DNA from: Myxosarcina sp. GI1
GTDB taxonomy: Bacteria; Cyanobacteriota; Cyanobacteriia; Cyanobacteriales; Xenococcaceae
Reading direction: 5' to 3'
Assembly (NCBI RefSeq): GCF_000756305.1
Contig: NZ_JRFE01000025.1
Coordinates: forward strand, 56,792-120,791
DNA length: 64,000 bases
Part shown: positions 1 through 52,538 of the stretch, in pieces
Position numbering within the stretch: position 1 is the first letter of the stretch
Layout of the letters: each line of letters starts with the position of its first letter
Position numbers and translations under genes: made by a program
The notes under the pieces: model-generated
Told to the model about the DNA's origin: nothing
The model's database searches: none
What the model saw: the letters and a program-made list of their open reading frames with translations, nothing else

Positions 1-272
1 GAGCCACTAGCAATATTTGCGCCGACATCTCCCCAATGGTGACAGCGTAGTTTGCCGCGATCGCTTTCTTCGGCTCTAACTCGCCAAAAATCTTCCTGTC
101 GCTCTGATTCTACTGGCATCCTCACCCGATTTTCAGCCTGCCATACCATGTAAGCAGCCCGTGAAGCAACTAGTTCGACTTCATAATCTGCTGCCAAAAG
201 AAATTTGAGGATGCGTACGGTATAAATTAAACCAGAAGCACCGCTAACACCAATGATTAAAGGTTTTGTCAT
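1..272 (-). CDS. ubiX: Flavin prenyltransferase UbiX (partial, 3' end outside window)
   Basis: The first 90 residues read in from an ATG at 272 and run off the left edge. The N-terminus MTKPLIIGVSGASGLIY carries the GxSGASG nucleotide/flavin-binding loop of UbiX/Pad1 enzymes, which make the prenylated FMN cofactor of UbiD-type decarboxylases. A conserved stretch with SRAAYMVWQAEN follows, as in cyanobacterial UbiX. The start lies 12 nt downstream of the stop of the HEAT-repeat gene on the same strand, so the two are probably co-transcribed. The rest of the protein cannot be judged here. Confidence 0.85.
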   Translation of the reverse strand, partial: MTKPLIIGVSGASGLIYTVRILKFLLAADYEVELVASRAAYMVWQAENRVRMPVESERQEDFWRVRAEESDRGKLRCHHWGDVGANIASG

Positions 273-284
273 TTAAGGGTCGAG

Positions 285-1037
285 TCAGATTAATCCTTCA
301 AATTCTAATTCTTCGATAAACTGTAAACCTCTAGGATCGCCGACTTTAAGAATGGCGGTTTTAGAGTCATCTTTTACTCCATAGTCATCGTCTTCTACCA
401 AGGCTTCGATTAAGGCATCGATTGCCGTAGCATAAACTACATTAGAAGGAAGCTCTCGACAAAGCTGGCCGATTGCCCAGGCGCAATTACTTCTAACTGC
501 CGCCATTGCATCTTTTCTTAAAGCTTCAATCAAAGGTGGCATAGCGGCAATTACATCTTCATATTCTAAAGTAGCTACTTGAGCTAGAGCACTAGCCGTC
601 CACAGACGTACTGCCGAAATATCGGTTTTGAGAGTATATATTAGTGGCTGCAAAGCGCGGCGATCGCGGCTATTGCCTAGAGCCCAGACTATACCTTTAC
701 GCACGTAGCCATTCCAATCTTCCTCTAATAGCTCGATTAGCGGTTCTACTGCTTCGGGTGAAGTGTTTCTTCCCAAAGCGTAAGCAGTACTGACTCTAAC
801 TAAAGGACAGTCATCTTTTAGTAGTTTAATTAACAACGGAATTGAGCGTCGATCTTCTAGTTCGCAAAAAGCTCTAGCCGCGATCGTTCTTTGAGAGGCT
901 TGCTCGGATTGCAGTAGCTCTAGCATTTGTTCGGGGTCGGGAGGGGGAACTTCTGATGCTGGGGCTACCGTATCCATCTCATCAAGCGGACTGGTGAGTT
1001 CTTCAGTTGATAACAGGCTCAATTCATCATGTTGCAT
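285..1037 (-). CDS. HEAT-repeat (PBS-lyase-like) protein
   Basis: This 250-aa protein is built of repeated helical pairs of the type RSIPLLIKLLKDDCPLVRVSTAYALG, spaced about 31-35 residues apart over residues ~40-235. These are HEAT/PBS-lyase repeats, of the kind found in phycobilin lyase subunits CpcE/CpcF and in many cyanobacterial scaffold proteins. The acidic N-terminal 35 residues look disordered. It has no signal peptide or membrane segment. It directly precedes ubiX. Calling it a bilin lyase would go beyond the evidence, because CpcE-family proteins cannot be separated from generic HEAT scaffolds by eye; a protein-protein interaction role is the safe reading. Confidence 0.75.
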   Translation of the reverse strand: MQHDELSLLSTEELTSPLDEMDTVAPASEVPPPDPEQMLELLQSEQASQRTIAARAFCELEDRRSIPLLIKLLKDDCPLVRVSTAYALGRNTSPEAVEPLIELLEEDWNGYVRKGIVWALGNSRDRRALQPLIYTLKTDISAVRLWTASALAQVATLEYEDVIAAMPPLIEALRKDAMAAVRSNCAWAIGQLCRELPSNVVYATAIDALIEALVEDDDYGVKDDSKTAILKVGDPRGLQFIEELEFEGLI

Positions 1038-1709
1038 AATTGCTTAAGTTATCTTATTAGTGCCAATTTCTCAAGTATTAACCAACGGTGCGAACTAAAA
1101 TTGCTATGCCCTTTAGTTTTCTCGAATCGATAGCTTTTCCAACCCAATCCCACTCTTATCTTAATATTTAATGTGTATTCAACGCTACATTGTCTGGGTG
1201 GCTACGCTGGCAGCAAACATAGAATGTCTAGTTGACAAAGATAACGTTCGGGCATCTTGATGTGGGTACTATATACGATCGTGCCAGCTTGGCATTTGTT
1301 ACAAACCCTCAGTATTAAAAGCACGGTGTATTCGCCTCAGCACCTGCGTACACGGCAACTGTAAGTTCCGTTAACTAGCAAAAACAAAGTAACAAAGTTA
1401 GGCTTTAAGCAGATGGACTTATTATAATGGCAACTGGTGCTGGTGCAGCCATATCAGAAGGTAAAAAGATTCTCGCGCTTACCGCTACCAATGCCAACAA
1501 AAAAATTGCTACTACAATTAAAGGAGTTATGTATTGACGAAAAAAATTCATTTAAATAAATAGATTTTTTAGGATATAAGGGTTAGAGGGTTTTAATAAA
1601 ATAAATTCCCAAACAAATCGTTTCAACGATAGTCTTTTTTTATCATAGTAAGAATCGCTCTCAAGAGGTTAGCCAATTTTCGCTACAGTTTAGAAATTTG
1701 TGTCAATTT
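1038..1709. other. Intergenic region between divergent HEAT and kinase genes
   Basis: This 670-bp gap between divergently transcribed genes presumably holds both promoters. The only coding-like signal is the 36-codon frame at 1427-1537, listed separately. I see no tRNA, structured RNA or transposon end. The last 150 bp before the kinase gene are very AT-rich. Confidence 0.5.
1427..1537 (+). CDS. Possible 36-aa small protein
   Basis: An ATG-TGA frame of 36 codons begins MATGAGAAISEGKK and ends ATTIKGVMY. It is rich in Ala, Thr and Lys, and an in-frame TAA lies seven codons before the ATG. No good Shine-Dalgarno sequence precedes the start. I do not recognise the product. It could be a real small basic protein, a remnant of a decayed gene, or chance; composition is the only support. 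Confidence 0.25.
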   Translation: MATGAGAAISEGKKILALTATNANKKIATTIKGVMY

Positions 1710-4403
1710 ATGTCAGACTCCGACTTTACTATTCCAATATCTCATACTCACGATTCTAGTTCAGAGGTTGGGGAAGAGCGTGGCTACAAGATTTTAAGAT
1801 CGGGCGATTTATTATGGAAGAGATACTATATTGTCAGGGAGCTTGGCAGTGGAGGATTTGCTACTACTTATCTGGCAGTCGATCGCCAGTCTAAGCCTCA
1901 AACTAAATGCGTTGTCAAACAGCTACAGCCAAGGTTTAATAGTCCAGCAGTATGGGCTAATGCTAAAGAAAGGCTGGCAACAGAAGCAAACGTGCTACAG
2001 TGGTTGGGCACTCACGATCGCATTCCTCGACTTTTAGCTCATTTTGAAGAAGATCGGCAATTTTACCTAGTTTTAGAATTTATTGAAGGTGAAGAACTAG
2101 AACTAGAGGTACAACGACAAGTTTTAACGGAACCTCAAGTAGTCGAGTTTTTAATTGAAATTTTAAAAATCTTAAATTTCGTCCATCAACAGGCTGTAAT
2201 TCATCGTGATATCAAACCAACTAACCTGATCAGACGGAAGAAAGACGGTAAGTTTACCTTAATTGATTTTGGTGCAGTTAAGGAAATTGGCACTTTAGCG
2301 TTTGACTCAAATAAACAGCCAATCGAGACTCAAATCATTGGTACACCTGGCTATATGCCACCCGAACAAAACAGCGGCAAACCTATTTTTAGCAGCGATC
2401 TTTACGCTTTGGGAAAAACCGCTATTTTCGCGCTTACGGGGCGATCGCCAATTGAATGGGAATTTTCTGAATCTCCAGACTCACCCAACTGGTACGATAA
2501 TCTTACTATAAGTAAAGCTCTAATCGAAGTTATCGAACGACTGACTGCCTCTAAAATAGCCGAGCGCTATCATAATGCCAACCGAGTTTTGCAAGATTTA
2601 AAACCAATGTTAGCAGTCGGCAAAACTGTTGCAGGACGATATTATATTGATGAGTATATAGGTAGCAGAGGCAGAATTAGCACTTATATATCTAGAAATT
2701 TAGGAGCGGATAATCCTTCTTTATATTATTTAAAAATTTTACAGCCTCAACAAACGCCAGCTTCTAGTTTGGATTTTGTAATCGAACGGTTAAACAGGGA
2801 GCTAACAGAGTTAACTAAATTAGAAACTTGCTCGCAGGTTCCTAAAATTATTGAATATTTAACCGATCGTAAAAATTTATATTTAATTCAAGAATACATA
2901 GAAGGTGAATCTTTAGCAAGAATAATCAAACGAAAAAAGATTTTTTCAGAAGCAGAAATTATCGATATAGTTATTTCCACTGCTAAGATTTTAGTCTCTA
3001 TTCACCAGCAAAATATCATTCACGGCAATATCAATCCTTTAAGTATAATTAAGCGCAAACACGACGGCAAGCTATTACTAGTAGATTTTGGCTCGATTCA
3101 AGAAGCGATATCTCTGTCTTCAAATAGTCATAGCCAAGTTTTCCCTGGCTCTCAATCTCACACTGACGAGCCACACGAAGCAAAGCATTTGTCTTATCCA
3201 GCTTCTAGTTCAAACTTAGAGCGAGCTGAATATCTCTCTCCCGAACAAATTTTTGGTAGCAAATCCGTTGCTAGTGATATCTATAGTTTGGGTATGACAG
3301 CCATTCATCTATTGACGGGAGTTGCTCCTGCTAATTTGCCCAAAAACCCTCGTACTGGCGAAATATTATGGCAAGATTTTCAAGCAGCTTCGGAATCAAA
3401 AAATGAAGTAATTTATAATGCCAAGCTTGCCAAAATTTTAAATAAAATGGTTTGTTTGGACAAACGCAAGCGATATCATTCTGCTGCCAAACTGATTAAA
3501 GACTTAAATAAAATTAAGCACAGCTCTAGCTTTCATAATTTGTCAAAATATTTATCGATTGTCCTCGTCCTAACTGGAGTAGTTTGGTTTGGATTGATTC
3601 AATGGGCGCAAAGAGTGGCTATTTTAGAGTTTTATAAAGGTGATATCAAACTAGAAGCCAAAAAATATAGAGAAGCAATTGAATATTATGACAATGGCTT
3701 GCAAAAGCTACCCAAAACTTACGGTATAGTTAAAAACTTCGAGCAAGTATGGTTGAAAAAAGCTAGAGCCTTAAGCCAATTAAATAGCTACGAACAGGTA
3801 ATAGACACCTGTAGCAATGCTTTAAGATATTATCAAAGTTATCGGTTATGGAACTGTAAGGCTTTAGCTTTAGATAGTCTCAAACAGTATGAAGAAGCTT
3901 TAAAATCTTACGATCGCGCCCTCGGCTTAAATAATGATTCTCCCTGGGTATGGAACAATCGCGGTGAGGTTTATGCCAAAATGGGTAATCCCGAAGCAGC
4001 GATCTCCGATTTTAAGCAAGCAATCGAACTAGATGCCGAACGAAGTTTTGTGCCCTGGAATAATTTGGGTAAGCTACACTATCAGCAACAAGATTACCAA
4101 AGAGCGATCGAAGCCTATCAGCAAGCGTTATCGGTCAAAGAAGATTATCTTCCTGCTTTAATAGGTTTGGGCAATGCTCAAAAAAACTTGCAACAGTATT
4201 CAGAGGCTTTACAGGCATATAACAAAGCAATTGAAATTGATGATACTTCCTATGAAGCATGGTATGGCAAGGGTTTGGTTGAAGAATCATTACAGCAATA
4301 TCGGGAAGCTAGAAAGGCTTATCAAAAGGCTTTCAGTCTAAAACCAGATTGGGAAACTGTAATTAAGGCGCTGCAGAGAGTAGAAAGGAAACTAGGTAAT
4401 TAA
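1710..4403 (+). CDS. Ser/Thr kinase-pseudokinase tandem with membrane segment and TPRs
   Basis: An 897-aa protein if the ATG at 1710 is used; a TTG four codons upstream is possible, and neither has a clear RBS. Residues ~38-300 form a complete Hanks-type kinase: Gly-rich loop GSGGFA at 46-51, Lys70, HRD at 165-167 and DFG at 186-188. A second kinase-like domain follows at ~305-600. It keeps Lys342 and DFG (459-461), but the catalytic loop reads HGN (438-440) and its Gly loop is degenerate, so it is probably a pseudokinase. A hydrophobic segment at ~614-633 is followed by about six TPR-like repeats to the C-terminus. Inference: a membrane-anchored signalling kinase whose TPRs recruit partners on the far side of the membrane. 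Confidence 0.88.
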   Translation: MSDSDFTIPISHTHDSSSEVGEERGYKILRSGDLLWKRYYIVRELGSGGFATTYLAVDRQSKPQTKCVVKQLQPRFNSPAVWANAKERLATEANVLQWLGTHDRIPRLLAHFEEDRQFYLVLEFIEGEELELEVQRQVLTEPQVVEFLIEILKILNFVHQQAVIHRDIKPTNLIRRKKDGKFTLIDFGAVKEIGTLAFDSNKQPIETQIIGTPGYMPPEQNSGKPIFSSDLYALGKTAIFALTGRSPIEWEFSESPDSPNWYDNLTISKALIEVIERLTASKIAERYHNANRVLQDLKPMLAVGKTVAGRYYIDEYIGSRGRISTYISRNLGADNPSLYYLKILQPQQTPASSLDFVIERLNRELTELTKLETCSQVPKIIEYLTDRKNLYLIQEYIEGESLARIIKRKKIFSEAEIIDIVISTAKILVSIHQQNIIHGNINPLSIIKRKHDGKLLLVDFGSIQEAISLSSNSHSQVFPGSQSHTDEPHEAKHLSYPASSSNLERAEYLSPEQIFGSKSVASDIYSLGMTAIHLLTGVAPANLPKNPRTGEILWQDFQAASESKNEVIYNAKLAKILNKMVCLDKRKRYHSAAKLIKDLNKIKHSSSFHNLSKYLSIVLVLTGVVWFGLIQWAQRVAILEFYKGDIKLEAKKYREAIEYYDNGLQKLPKTYGIVKNFEQVWLKKARALSQLNSYEQVIDTCSNALRYYQSYRLWNCKALALDSLKQYEEALKSYDRALGLNNDSPWVWNNRGEVYAKMGNPEAAISDFKQAIELDAERSFVPWNNLGKLHYQQQDYQRAIEAYQQALSVKEDYLPALIGLGNAQKNLQQYSEALQAYNKAIEIDDTSYEAWYGKGLVEESLQQYREARKAYQKAFSLKPDWETVIKALQRVERKLGN

Positions 4404-49634: not shown

Positions 49635-50390
49635 ATGAACTCTATTCTCTCGGTTAAAGATTTACAGGTAGTCTTTTCGGGTTTCAAAGCTCTAAAAGGT
49701 GTCAACTTAGAAGTAAGCGATCGCGAAATTGTCACGATTATCGGTCCTAACGGTGCTGGCAAAAGTACTCTTCTCGATGCGATCGTCTCTAAATCTCCCG
49801 TCGCTGCGGGACACGTTTACTATCAGGGTAAAGACATCACTAATAAAACACCCTATGAAATTGCCCGTATGGGTATCGGTCGCAAATTTCAAAACCCCAA
49901 CGTCTATAACGAATTGACCGTCTTTGAAAATATCCTACTGGCTCTCAAAGGCAGTCATGGTATTTTATCCTCAATTACTGCCAAATTAACCAAAGCCAAA
50001 AAAGACCGCATTATCGATATTCTCGATCGCATCAGGTTACTAGAATATGCTGGAAACAAAGTCGGCTCTCTTTCTCACGGACAAAAACAGTGGATCGAAA
50101 TTGGGATGACTATCGCTCAAGATCCTGCCGTGGTCTTATTAGACGAACCCACCGCAGGTATGACTCCCGAAGAAACTAGAGCTACAGGAGAAATTATTCG
50201 CGATATTGCCCATCATCATGCGGTTATCGTCATCGAACACGATATGGAATTTGTCAAACAAATTGCCGAACGTATTATCGTGCTGCATCAGGGAGCAAAA
50301 TTAGCTGAAGGTACGGTAACGGAAATCCAAAACAACCCCGAAGTAATTAAAGTTTATTTAGGAAGAGAAAAAATCGATGTCGCTGCTTGA
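49635..50390 (+). CDS. urtD: Urea ABC transporter ATPase UrtD
   Basis: A 251-aa LivG-type ATPase: Walker A GPNGAGKST, signature LSHGQKQW, Walker B VVLLDEPTAG and switch His in IVIEHDM. Length and order are as expected for UrtD. It overlaps urtE by 14 bp, which suggests translational coupling. Confidence 0.92.
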   Translation: MNSILSVKDLQVVFSGFKALKGVNLEVSDREIVTIIGPNGAGKSTLLDAIVSKSPVAAGHVYYQGKDITNKTPYEIARMGIGRKFQNPNVYNELTVFENILLALKGSHGILSSITAKLTKAKKDRIIDILDRIRLLEYAGNKVGSLSHGQKQWIEIGMTIAQDPAVVLLDEPTAGMTPEETRATGEIIRDIAHHHAVIVIEHDMEFVKQIAERIIVLHQGAKLAEGTVTEIQNNPEVIKVYLGREKIDVAA

Positions 50391-51078
50391 ACTTAAAAAC
50401 GTTACTGCTGGCTACGGTCAAACACCTGTATTGTTCGATGTCAATATGATTGTCAATAAGGGTGATATGGTTTGTTTGTTGGGTCGTAATGGTGTTGGTA
50501 AAACTACATTGTTACGTAGCATCATCGGACTAAACAAGTTGACTCAGGGTAGCCTGTTTTTTAAAGACAAAAATATTGCTAAAGAACCTACTTATAAAAG
50601 AGCGCGTTACGGTATTGCCTATATTCCCCAGGGTAGAGAAATTATTCCCTATCTTTCGGTTTTAGACAACCTAAAGTTAGGCTTTAGTGCTAGCGGTAAG
50701 AGCAGCAAGCGAATTCCTTCAGAGATCTTTGAATTTTTCCCCATGCTCAAAGAACATCTCAAGCGACAGGGAGGTCTACTTAGCGGCGGACAACAGCAGC
50801 AACTAGCGATCGCCAGAGGACTGATGTGCAATCCCCAGGTGATGTTACTTGATGAGCCTACAGAGGGAATTCAGCCTTCAATCGTACAGGAAATTGAGGA
50901 AACTTTACTAAGAATTAACCGCGAAAAGGGCATTACCGTCATCGTCGTCGAACAGAAAATCGATTTTGCCCGTCAGTTAGCTCAAAAGTTCTTCATCATG
51001 GATAAAGGCGCAATTATGGCTAGGGGCGATACTAGCGAGCTAACCGATTCTTTAGTGCATAAGTACTTAACTGTTTAG
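50377..51078 (+). CDS. urtE: Urea ABC transporter ATPase UrtE
   Basis: A 233-aa LivF-type ATPase: Walker A GRNGVGKTT, signature LSGGQQQQ, Walker B VMLLDEPTEG. It starts within urtD. The stop codon TAG (51076-51078) lies inside one copy of a 10-bp target-site duplication, so a small mobile element has landed right at the 3' end of the gene without altering the protein. Confidence 0.92.
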   Translation: MSLLELKNVTAGYGQTPVLFDVNMIVNKGDMVCLLGRNGVGKTTLLRSIIGLNKLTQGSLFFKDKNIAKEPTYKRARYGIAYIPQGREIIPYLSVLDNLKLGFSASGKSSKRIPSEIFEFFPMLKEHLKRQGGLLSGGQQQQLAIARGLMCNPQVMLLDEPTEGIQPSIVQEIEETLLRINREKGITVIVVEQKIDFARQLAQKFFIMDKGAIMARGDTSELTDSLVHKYLTV

Positions 51079-51245
51079 CTCAATACTTCTTGGATAAGCA
51101 AATTAATCGAGATTGTTAGTAAAGAAAAGGTGTACGGTAAAACGAATAAAGAATATACTTAATACCTTTACCCCTTACCTTTTTCCTTTTCCCATTCTTC
51201 ATAAATCGAATTGAATCGTCAAATAAGAAGTATTGCTGTTTAGCT
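51071..51245. mobile_element. 155-bp MITE-like element with target-site duplication
   Basis: The segment 51081-51235 starts caatacttctt and ends aagaagtattg, perfect 11-bp terminal inverted repeats. It is flanked on both sides by exactly the same 10 bp, ctgtttagct (51071-51080 and 51236-51245). This is the signature of a transposition event. The interior is AT-rich and shows a secondary fold-back (aaaaggtgtacggtaaa against the ttacccctt/acctttttcc tract) and no open frame. A non-autonomous element mobilised by an IS elsewhere is the best reading. A 10-bp duplication is in the range of IS4-type transposases, but this is a guess. Confidence 0.8.
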
Positions 51246-51252
51246 AAAATAC

Positions 51253-52440
51253 CTACGAATATTGCGAAGGAGTGGGAAAAATATCATTGAGCAACCAGTT
51301 ACCAACATCGCGAAGTTTGTAATCTACAGGATCGTGGAGAGTAAAGGTACGTAAATCGCGCCAGTAGCGATCGAATCCATAACGCTCCGCAGTAGCTCTA
51401 GCTCCCGTAACTTCAAAGATACGATTAGTTACCTCTAAACCTGCTTTAGCGGCAAAAGCTTTAGCAGCAGAAACGGCGATCGCAATTTCCCCTCTTTCCT
51501 CAAAAGTCAATTTAATGCTTTTTTGCCATCCGCGATCGATTTTTTGTGCCGCTCGTTCGGCTAGTGCGATCGCCGCCTGAAGTTCCGTCCACAACTCTCC
51601 ATAGTGATGTAGGATAAAAGGATCGTTAGCAGCTTTATCGACTCCAGAACTCATCCAAGGACGGGTATTAGTTAAAGTATATTTTCTAGCCGCTTCTAAA
51701 GCACCTTCAGCAATACCCAGATAAACAAAAGTCTTAGAAAGCTGCGCTACCAAAAAAATTAGCGTTGGGAAGGCACTTTCTGGTGCTAGTGGCGGACCTA
51801 AGATCTCTTCTGGAGCGACACTGACATTATTAAACGTATAGCTACCACTAACGGTTCTTCGCTGTCCCATATTGTGCCAATCATAATTGTAGGTAGTACC
51901 CGTTCTGTCTTTGGGCAGCACAAATATAATCGGAGCTTCAACACCTTCTCGGATGGCAGCAATGACGTTAAGATCGCCTATCGCTACTCCCGTACCAAAA
52001 CTTTTAATCCCGTTAACTAGATAGTTATTGCCATCGGGAGTAATCTTGAGACGAGCATCTCGACCATTAAGGGCATTAGCCCAAAACAAATTTTGTTCGC
52101 TAGTAAGTCGATAGAACTTTTCTGCTTGTCCTGCTCTACCAATTACCTCTCCCAAAACAGCTAACGTAACGTGATTGGTATAAAGTTGCCCTAAAGAACC
52201 ATCCGCTTTGGACAGGGTTTGAACAACTTTGTATGTTTCCGTCCACGTTGCACCAATGCCACCATACTCTTGAGGAACTGAAAGCAACAGCAGTCCCGAT
52301 TTTTTTAATAGCTCGATTTCCTCTTGAGGAATTCCACCCAGGCGATCGCGCTCTAAAGCATTAACAGCTAGGGCTTGAGAAACTTCGGCAGCAATAGTTT
52401 GATAGTCTAAATTTTTTTTTGATTCTAATACTCGTACCAT
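51253..52440 (-). CDS. Acyl-CoA dehydrogenase-fold flavoprotein (SfnB/DszC-like)
   Basis: A 395-aa protein of the acyl-CoA dehydrogenase superfamily. It contains VPQEYGGIGATWTETYKVVQTL, SFGTGVAIGDLNVIAA and EVTGARATAERYGFDRYWRDLRTFTLHDPVDYK. The sequence is closer to the monooxygenase branch (DszC, SfnB, SoxC) than to fatty-acid dehydrogenases: the usual catalytic Glu is not apparent. Such enzymes need a reduced flavin and act on sulfur or aromatic compounds. No flavin reductase or sulfonate gene is adjacent, so the substrate is open. Confidence 0.78.
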   Translation of the reverse strand: MVRVLESKKNLDYQTIAAEVSQALAVNALERDRLGGIPQEEIELLKKSGLLLLSVPQEYGGIGATWTETYKVVQTLSKADGSLGQLYTNHVTLAVLGEVIGRAGQAEKFYRLTSEQNLFWANALNGRDARLKITPDGNNYLVNGIKSFGTGVAIGDLNVIAAIREGVEAPIIFVLPKDRTGTTYNYDWHNMGQRRTVSGSYTFNNVSVAPEEILGPPLAPESAFPTLIFLVAQLSKTFVYLGIAEGALEAARKYTLTNTRPWMSSGVDKAANDPFILHHYGELWTELQAAIALAERAAQKIDRGWQKSIKLTFEERGEIAIAVSAAKAFAAKAGLEVTNRIFEVTGARATAERYGFDRYWRDLRTFTLHDPVDYKLRDVGNWLLNDIFPTPSQYS

Positions 52441-52538
52441 AATTAATTTTGCCTATACAGATCGACTTGACTTGTAATTTATGCGGCGAGCGAGAACAAG
52501 TCGGGATGCAATCGAGAATAAATCGGGACAACGTCTAA

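Follow-up and report, generated by a model that had tools for sequence, protein, structure and literature searches.

A probable non-autonomous IS4-subgroup element of 155 bp at the urtE stop codon of Myxosarcina sp. GI1

Positions 51081-51235 of the window, the 64,000-nucleotide stretch of DNA analyzed here, very probably hold a miniature element that derives from an IS4-family insertion sequence (subgroup IS4), carries no gene, and would have been moved by a transposase acting in trans. The element is assigned to the MITE-type, non-autonomous derivatives of subgroup IS4 because its ends and its 10-bp target-site duplication (TSD) are shared with IS4-family insertion sequences. It is a new example of an already known class, the non-autonomous IS4-subgroup MITEs. 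An earlier note on this DNA had described a MITE, and the relatives bear this out: related ends, related MITEs, and insertion sequences that share these ends and a 10-bp TSD occur among them. The features of the locus are as follows.

50377..51078, plus strand: urtE, urea ABC transporter ATP-binding subunit, intact (TIGR03410, over cut-off)
51071..51080, no strand: left target-site duplicate CTGTTTAGCT, which includes the urtE stop TAG at 51076-51078 (sequence and repeat finder)
51081..51235, no strand: 155-bp non-autonomous IS4-subgroup element, MITE type, a very probable assignment (sequence and end-pair comparison)
51081..51091, plus strand: left terminal inverted repeat CAATACTTCTT; extended end CAATACTTCTTGGATAAGC
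51165..51200, minus strand: purine-rich tract of low complexity, not counted as a working part
51225..51235, minus strand: right terminal inverted repeat AAGAAGTATTG, which reads CAATACTTCTT inward on the minus strand; extended end CAATACTTCTTATTTGACGATTC
51236..51245, no strand: right target-site duplicate CTGTTTAGCT (sequence and repeat finder)
51253..52440, minus strand: flavoprotein gene of acyl-CoA-dehydrogenase type, convergent with urtE (DszC and SfnB are its top NCBIfam models; neither reaches its cut-off)

The terminal inverted repeats (TIRs) of the element are perfect over 11 bp and the flanking TSD is exact over 10 bp. Direct reading and a repeat finder agree to the base with the earlier description of both repeats at 51071-51245. 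The G+C content of the element is 30%, compared to 39.9% in the window. Its longest stop-free stretch is 39 codons, and it contains no transposase gene. Fold-back is expected of any element with TIRs. The fold-back that had been claimed here is real and modest: the plus strand of 51071-51245 folds at -34.2 kcal/mol (z -2.57), and a fold as good arises in 2 of 200 shuffles.

A scan of the 64-kb window for TIRs of at least 8 bp with an exact flanking repeat of 8-12 bp, over spans of 50-3000, returned 51071-51245 as the sole site. Under the same thresholds, 20 first-order Markov copies of the window yielded four structures in total. With thresholds of 7+7, the best sum of TIR and TSD lengths in the 20 Markov windows was 19, versus 21 for the element. 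The structure alone is moderately improbable, and it suggests an insertion without proving one. Judged from sequence, the deciding support for an insertion comes from the comparison with related ends, not from the element's own structure.

Searching 60 genomes with the 155 bases (E<=1) returned, besides the element's own copy, short matches only; several of these fell at the element's ends and pointed to an end family. Among 388 genomes of the order, the own genome included, eight matched at E<=1e-5 (with two initial candidates per genome scored among the rows listed): the own genome, and seven in the middle of the element only. These seven matches lie within positions 54-141 of the 175-base query and were judged to be a low-complexity purine/pyrimidine tract, which leaves none of the 387 other genomes with a match at this threshold outside the low-complexity middle. 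The best middle match, L002 (genome G015; E 4.5e-8), was rejected as a relative, as its 3075 bases hold no CAATACTTCTT within one mismatch.

The ends themselves are widespread. A 17-base end pattern, CAATACTTCTYRKHTRA, occurs 62 times in 12 of the 26 genomes searched (own included), and the reversed pattern does not occur. All 12 genomes belong to the family of the window itself; the pattern is missing from the nine genomes outside that family. Because the pattern was built from ends first observed partly in the same genomes, the reversed control carries the weight of this count. When genome contigs were scanned for CAATACTTCTYGGHTAAGC, at least 119 stretches matched. Among the matches listed, 74 of 80 have cyanobacterial titles, 34 of 80 come from a single Chamaesiphon MAG, and the 6 in other phyla may be chance. 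The end matches listed for JANYIT01 (Chamaesiphon sp. GL140_3) lie mostly ~80-140 bases from the end of a stretch, the pattern that a high-copy insertion sequence would leave by fragmenting the assembly.

Pairs of such ends were then compared in 235 loci, most of them fetched on account of such ends. With up to two mismatches in 10 allowed in the ends and up to one in a 10-bp flanking repeat, 21 different elements were found, and each of the controls (one reversed end and five shuffled ends) gave 0. This test imposed the 10-bp repeat length, and a free-length test (exact repeats of 5-14 bp) was run afterwards. Of 70 end pairs, 13 have an exact flanking repeat, and each of these is exactly 10 bp long; the 57 pairs with no exact repeat in the allowed range presumably include many chance pairings or decayed elements. 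Two of the 13 exact cases, L213 and L222, have targets that are mutually reverse-complementary and may represent one insertion in two records, and the repeat of another, L179, is of low complexity. The clear exact cases are thus 11 of 13, counting the window element.

Two further loci were observed among these records. At L100, positions 900-1023 hold a 124-bp MITE of the same kind with ends CAATACTGTTCGG and CAATACCGTTCGG and the exact duplication CGACTAGTTC; it is nested within the broken IS4-subgroup transposase gene of a related insertion sequence. At L098 (G011), a 1279-bp stretch (555-1833) has ends like those of the 344-bp MITE of L087/L099. It contains two open reading frames that by eye resemble an IS5-type transposase, and another insertion sequence may have entered a copy of the MITE.

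The earlier note had called for an insertion sequence with matching ends, and such sequences were found in relatives. In G013, the locus represented by L076/L097 carries a 1479-bp insertion sequence with such ends, identical to those of the element over 10 bp, and the TSD TGATGCCTCT. In G018, L299 carries a 1494-bp insertion sequence with the TSD GATTGCGTTT, and its 11-bp end CAATACTTCTT is identical to that of the element. Both have ends of the form CAATACTTCT(C/T)G(G/T)TTAAG, 10-bp duplications, and the YREK signature, which was found in L097, L299, and L263. The transposase genes of both copies are broken. That of L097 is split over three separate frames whose pieces match the Pfam models PF13006 (Nterm_IS4) and PF01609 (DDE_Tnp_1) over cut-off; the pieces also match NF033592 (IS4 family), each under the whole-protein cut-off. 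That of L299 has one stop inside the matched stretch. Plasmids of Tolypothrix sp. PCC 7601 and strain TIOX110 carry relatives whose frames are open over 465 and 462 amino acids and score over the NF033592 cut-off. The ends of these relatives, CAATACTG(T/C)TCGGTTAAGG, are more diverged from those of the element than are the L299 and L097 ends.

Ends of this plasmid form bound IS4-type elements of ~2.15-2.18 kb on cyanobacterial plasmids (L263 1153-3320, L264 1156-3305, and L265 1155-3331). No 10-bp duplication was seen by eye flanking these three elements. Each has a gene of 126 amino acids in opposite orientation beside the transposase region, possibly a passenger gene; neither the L263 nor the L264 copy has a Pfam or NCBIfam hit at E<=0.001.

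Mobile insertion cassettes of IS231 are non-autonomous and are moved by an IS4-family transposase. Nezha, reportedly described by Zhou et al. in 2008, is said to be a small non-coding cyanobacterial MITE with inverted repeats and a duplicated target. The window element resembles Nezha in being small, non-coding, and cyanobacterial, with inverted repeats and a duplicated target; this likeness is one of general features. It differs from the IS231 cassettes in its subgroup and ends, as IS231 ends start with CAT (PMC2266710, Table 1). For subgroup IS4, the same table (De Palmenaer et al. 2008, PMC2266710) gives ends of -AATR--------WTW----, duplications of 10-13 bp, lengths of 1400-1650 bp, and YREK. 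The L097 and L299 copies (1479 and 1494 bp, 10-bp duplications, YREK) fit this entry of Table 1, and the 10-bp TSD of the element lies within the tabulated 10-13 bp. The left end of the element conforms to the Table 1 consensus (AATA, ATA), and the right end reads AATA, TTG, with G at the last W of the consensus. Unlike these insertion sequences, the window element lacks a transposase. A survey of cyanobacterial insertion sequences names an IS4-family group as one of the two most widely deployed in cyanobacteria and archaea (PMC2246112). In the open-licence literature there is no mention of the end sequence, which does not show that the family is unpublished; terms for cyanobacterial MITEs returned nothing there, and 'miniature inverted-repeat' is absent among the matches listed for MITE with Pleurocapsales genera.

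By DNA search, the 155-bp sequence has one copy in its own genome. Two other elements there have similar ends and interiors that differ from that of the 155-bp element. The first (C24:356448-356654) is 207 bp long, with two mismatches in 10 at its left end and the exact TSD CGCCCCGTCT; the second (C14:258281-258438) is 158 bp long, with one mismatch in 10 at its left end and the TSD CTCTCTATCC/CTCTCCGTCC (8/10). A solo end is located at C7:67281-67297. MITEs are typically repeated within a genome; here the two further elements and the solo end are similar to the 155-bp element in their ends. Across the genome, the end pattern has five exact occurrences (two of them in the window element) and two with one mismatch (L238 and L239), for which no partner end was seen by eye in ~310 bases each. 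At up to two mismatches there are 81 matches, mostly background, because the reversed control has 72.

Neither the 151-aa piece (E<=1e-3) nor the 465-aa protein from the plasmid (E<=1e-10) detected a transposase homologue in the own genome; the latter search was positive in 13 of 40 genomes. At E<=1, the 27 DDE_Tnp_1 loci of the genome are all dissimilar to the IS4-subgroup transposase. The window element therefore appears to be an orphan with no transposase detected in its genome, a draft of 76 contigs in which an unassembled copy is possible.

Seven genomes have a urtE orthologue (75-78% DNA identity), and none has the element at the stop. Related ends occur in the own genome and in relatives; together with this absence, they are the opposite of what the earlier note named as grounds for giving up the insertion. 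Past the urtE stop, L268 has a single end (up to one mismatch in 10) at 820 bases, and L270 (G018) has single ends of the same quality at 351 and 731 bases, all with no partner end. L270 also reads ACTGTTTAGTCAAAATA, similar to the flanks of the element over a few bases only. The flavoprotein gene beside urtE is absent from the stretch examined in all seven relatives, and so none of them represents a strict empty site; a site with a single copy of the duplicated target, which the earlier note had proposed to look for, was not found among them in that strict sense. Judging by these seven genomes, the element is no component of the conserved urt operon.

The position of the urtE stop within the duplicate was reported correctly, with TAG at 51076-51078 inside the left copy. 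It is no special feature, because any insertion with such a duplication keeps the stop. The gap between urtE and the flavoprotein gene is now 174 bp; subtracting the element and one duplicate (165 inserted bases) leaves 9 bp. The net effect of the insertion would be this widening of the gap between convergent genes from 9 to 174 bp. Scans for terminators, promoters, and Rfam families around the element returned nothing exceeding chance; 50900-51400 holds no site resembling an intrinsic terminator, and Rfam gave no match at E<=1 across 50000-52500.

By analogy with the relatives, the element would have kept two ends recognizable by an IS4-type transposase and no gene between them. The transposase would have acted in trans, supplied by an autonomous copy that the lineage once had or that came in on a plasmid. 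It would have excised the element elsewhere and inserted it at CTGTTTAGCT, where the two strands were cut 10 bp apart, and gap repair after insertion would have produced the flanking duplicates. UrtE would have been left unaltered because the duplicated target includes the urtE stop. The source of transposase now seems to be absent or undetected, and this copy is therefore probably immobile.

An alternative origin involves no transposition: both kinds of repeats, inverted and direct, would have arisen by chance in an AT-rich spacer between the genes. Windows of the same composition do reach a TIR and TSD sum of 19 and gave four qualifying structures in 20, and the 155-bp sequence is single-copy in the genome. 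Against this, 20 other elements have such ends with a 10-bp flanking repeat while six controls have none, and all 13 exact flanking repeats among the 70 end pairs are 10 bp long. The count of the end pattern and both end-pair tests refute the chance origin in substance, and it is extremely improbable. The earlier note took the exact TSD and TIRs to mean a recent event, and recent movement by a transposase that the cell still has would fit them, as it would the exact TSD of the 207-bp element. That reading is unlikely: searches with the 151-aa piece (E<=1e-3) and the 465-aa relative (E<=1e-10) found no homologue, and all 27 DDE_Tnp_1 loci of the 76-contig draft are unlike the IS4-subgroup transposase (E<=1). 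Moreover, the survival of an exact 10-bp repeat follows ~exp(-20d), where d is the divergence per copy, and by this arithmetic falls to 5% only at d = 0.15. An exact duplicate that tolerates so much divergence therefore says little on age. With a single copy, no transposase found in the genome, and no strict empty site located, the claim of a recent event fares poorly.

The element could also have been retained for what it does at the locus, as a bidirectional 3'-end structure for genes that formerly ended 9 bp apart, where it would protect or terminate the urt and flavoprotein mRNAs. The present gap of 174 bp and the fold (-34.2 kcal/mol, z -2.57) agree with this proposal; the lack of a terminator-like site or Rfam match in the intervals scanned speaks against it, as does the absence of anything comparable at the locus in the seven relatives, and folding back is common to elements with TIRs. 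We regard such retention as improbable. The combined scenario is highly doubtful: in it, an orphan MITE, its transposase now lost from the host, would have been retained as a bidirectional 3'-end insulator that separates the urea-transport operon from the convergent flavoprotein gene. From the modeled fold, the element may provide both mRNAs with a fold-back 3' end, and an effect on the 3' end of the urt mRNA, as raised in the earlier note, is possible.

The purine tract was considered as a hallmark of these MITEs and rejected. In 14 non-redundant MITEs (8 of 22 elements were removed beforehand, 3 long and 5 near-identical), the best purine run averages 22.3, versus 9.3 in the flanks (Wilcoxon p 4e-4) and 14.7 in shuffles (p 0.008). 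Taken singly, just 4 of these 14 MITEs, including the one in the window, have a run that beats 95% of their own shuffles. The own genome has 95 overlapping matches to the purine-tract pattern, versus 123 for the reversed pattern, which is also purine-rich. None of 30 tract loci there (some overlapping) has an inverted repeat with a flanking repeat of at least 8 bases around the tract; the tract of L349 has a 12/14 inverted repeat and a 5-base flanking repeat. Such tracts are widespread in the genome, and the tract is therefore regarded as general low-complexity DNA of this genome. Other repeats came to light around these tracts. A 346-bp stretch of the own genome (L347 1467-1812, near C10:61962) surrounds a purine tract and has perfect 14-bp inverted ends, TCAGGACTTACGCA; it has no exact duplication of 2-11 bases and is perhaps another MITE family. 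Purine tracts of the GGGGAAAGGGAAAAAGG type form inverted pairs ~40 bases apart at C32:43186-43258, C35:5583-5655, C55:8944-9016, and C31:8545-8608, with the appearance of another family of intergenic hairpin repeats.

The IS4-subgroup assignment of the window element ties small inserts in its own family and in other cyanobacteria, among them Nostoc and Hormoscilla, to a single subgroup of insertion sequences. Ends of CAATACTTCT with exactly 10 duplicated bases are a simple test for such inserts and could aid their annotation. For the urt operon, the element matters only if altered 3' ends change expression. The genome retains such inserts despite having no detected transposase for them.
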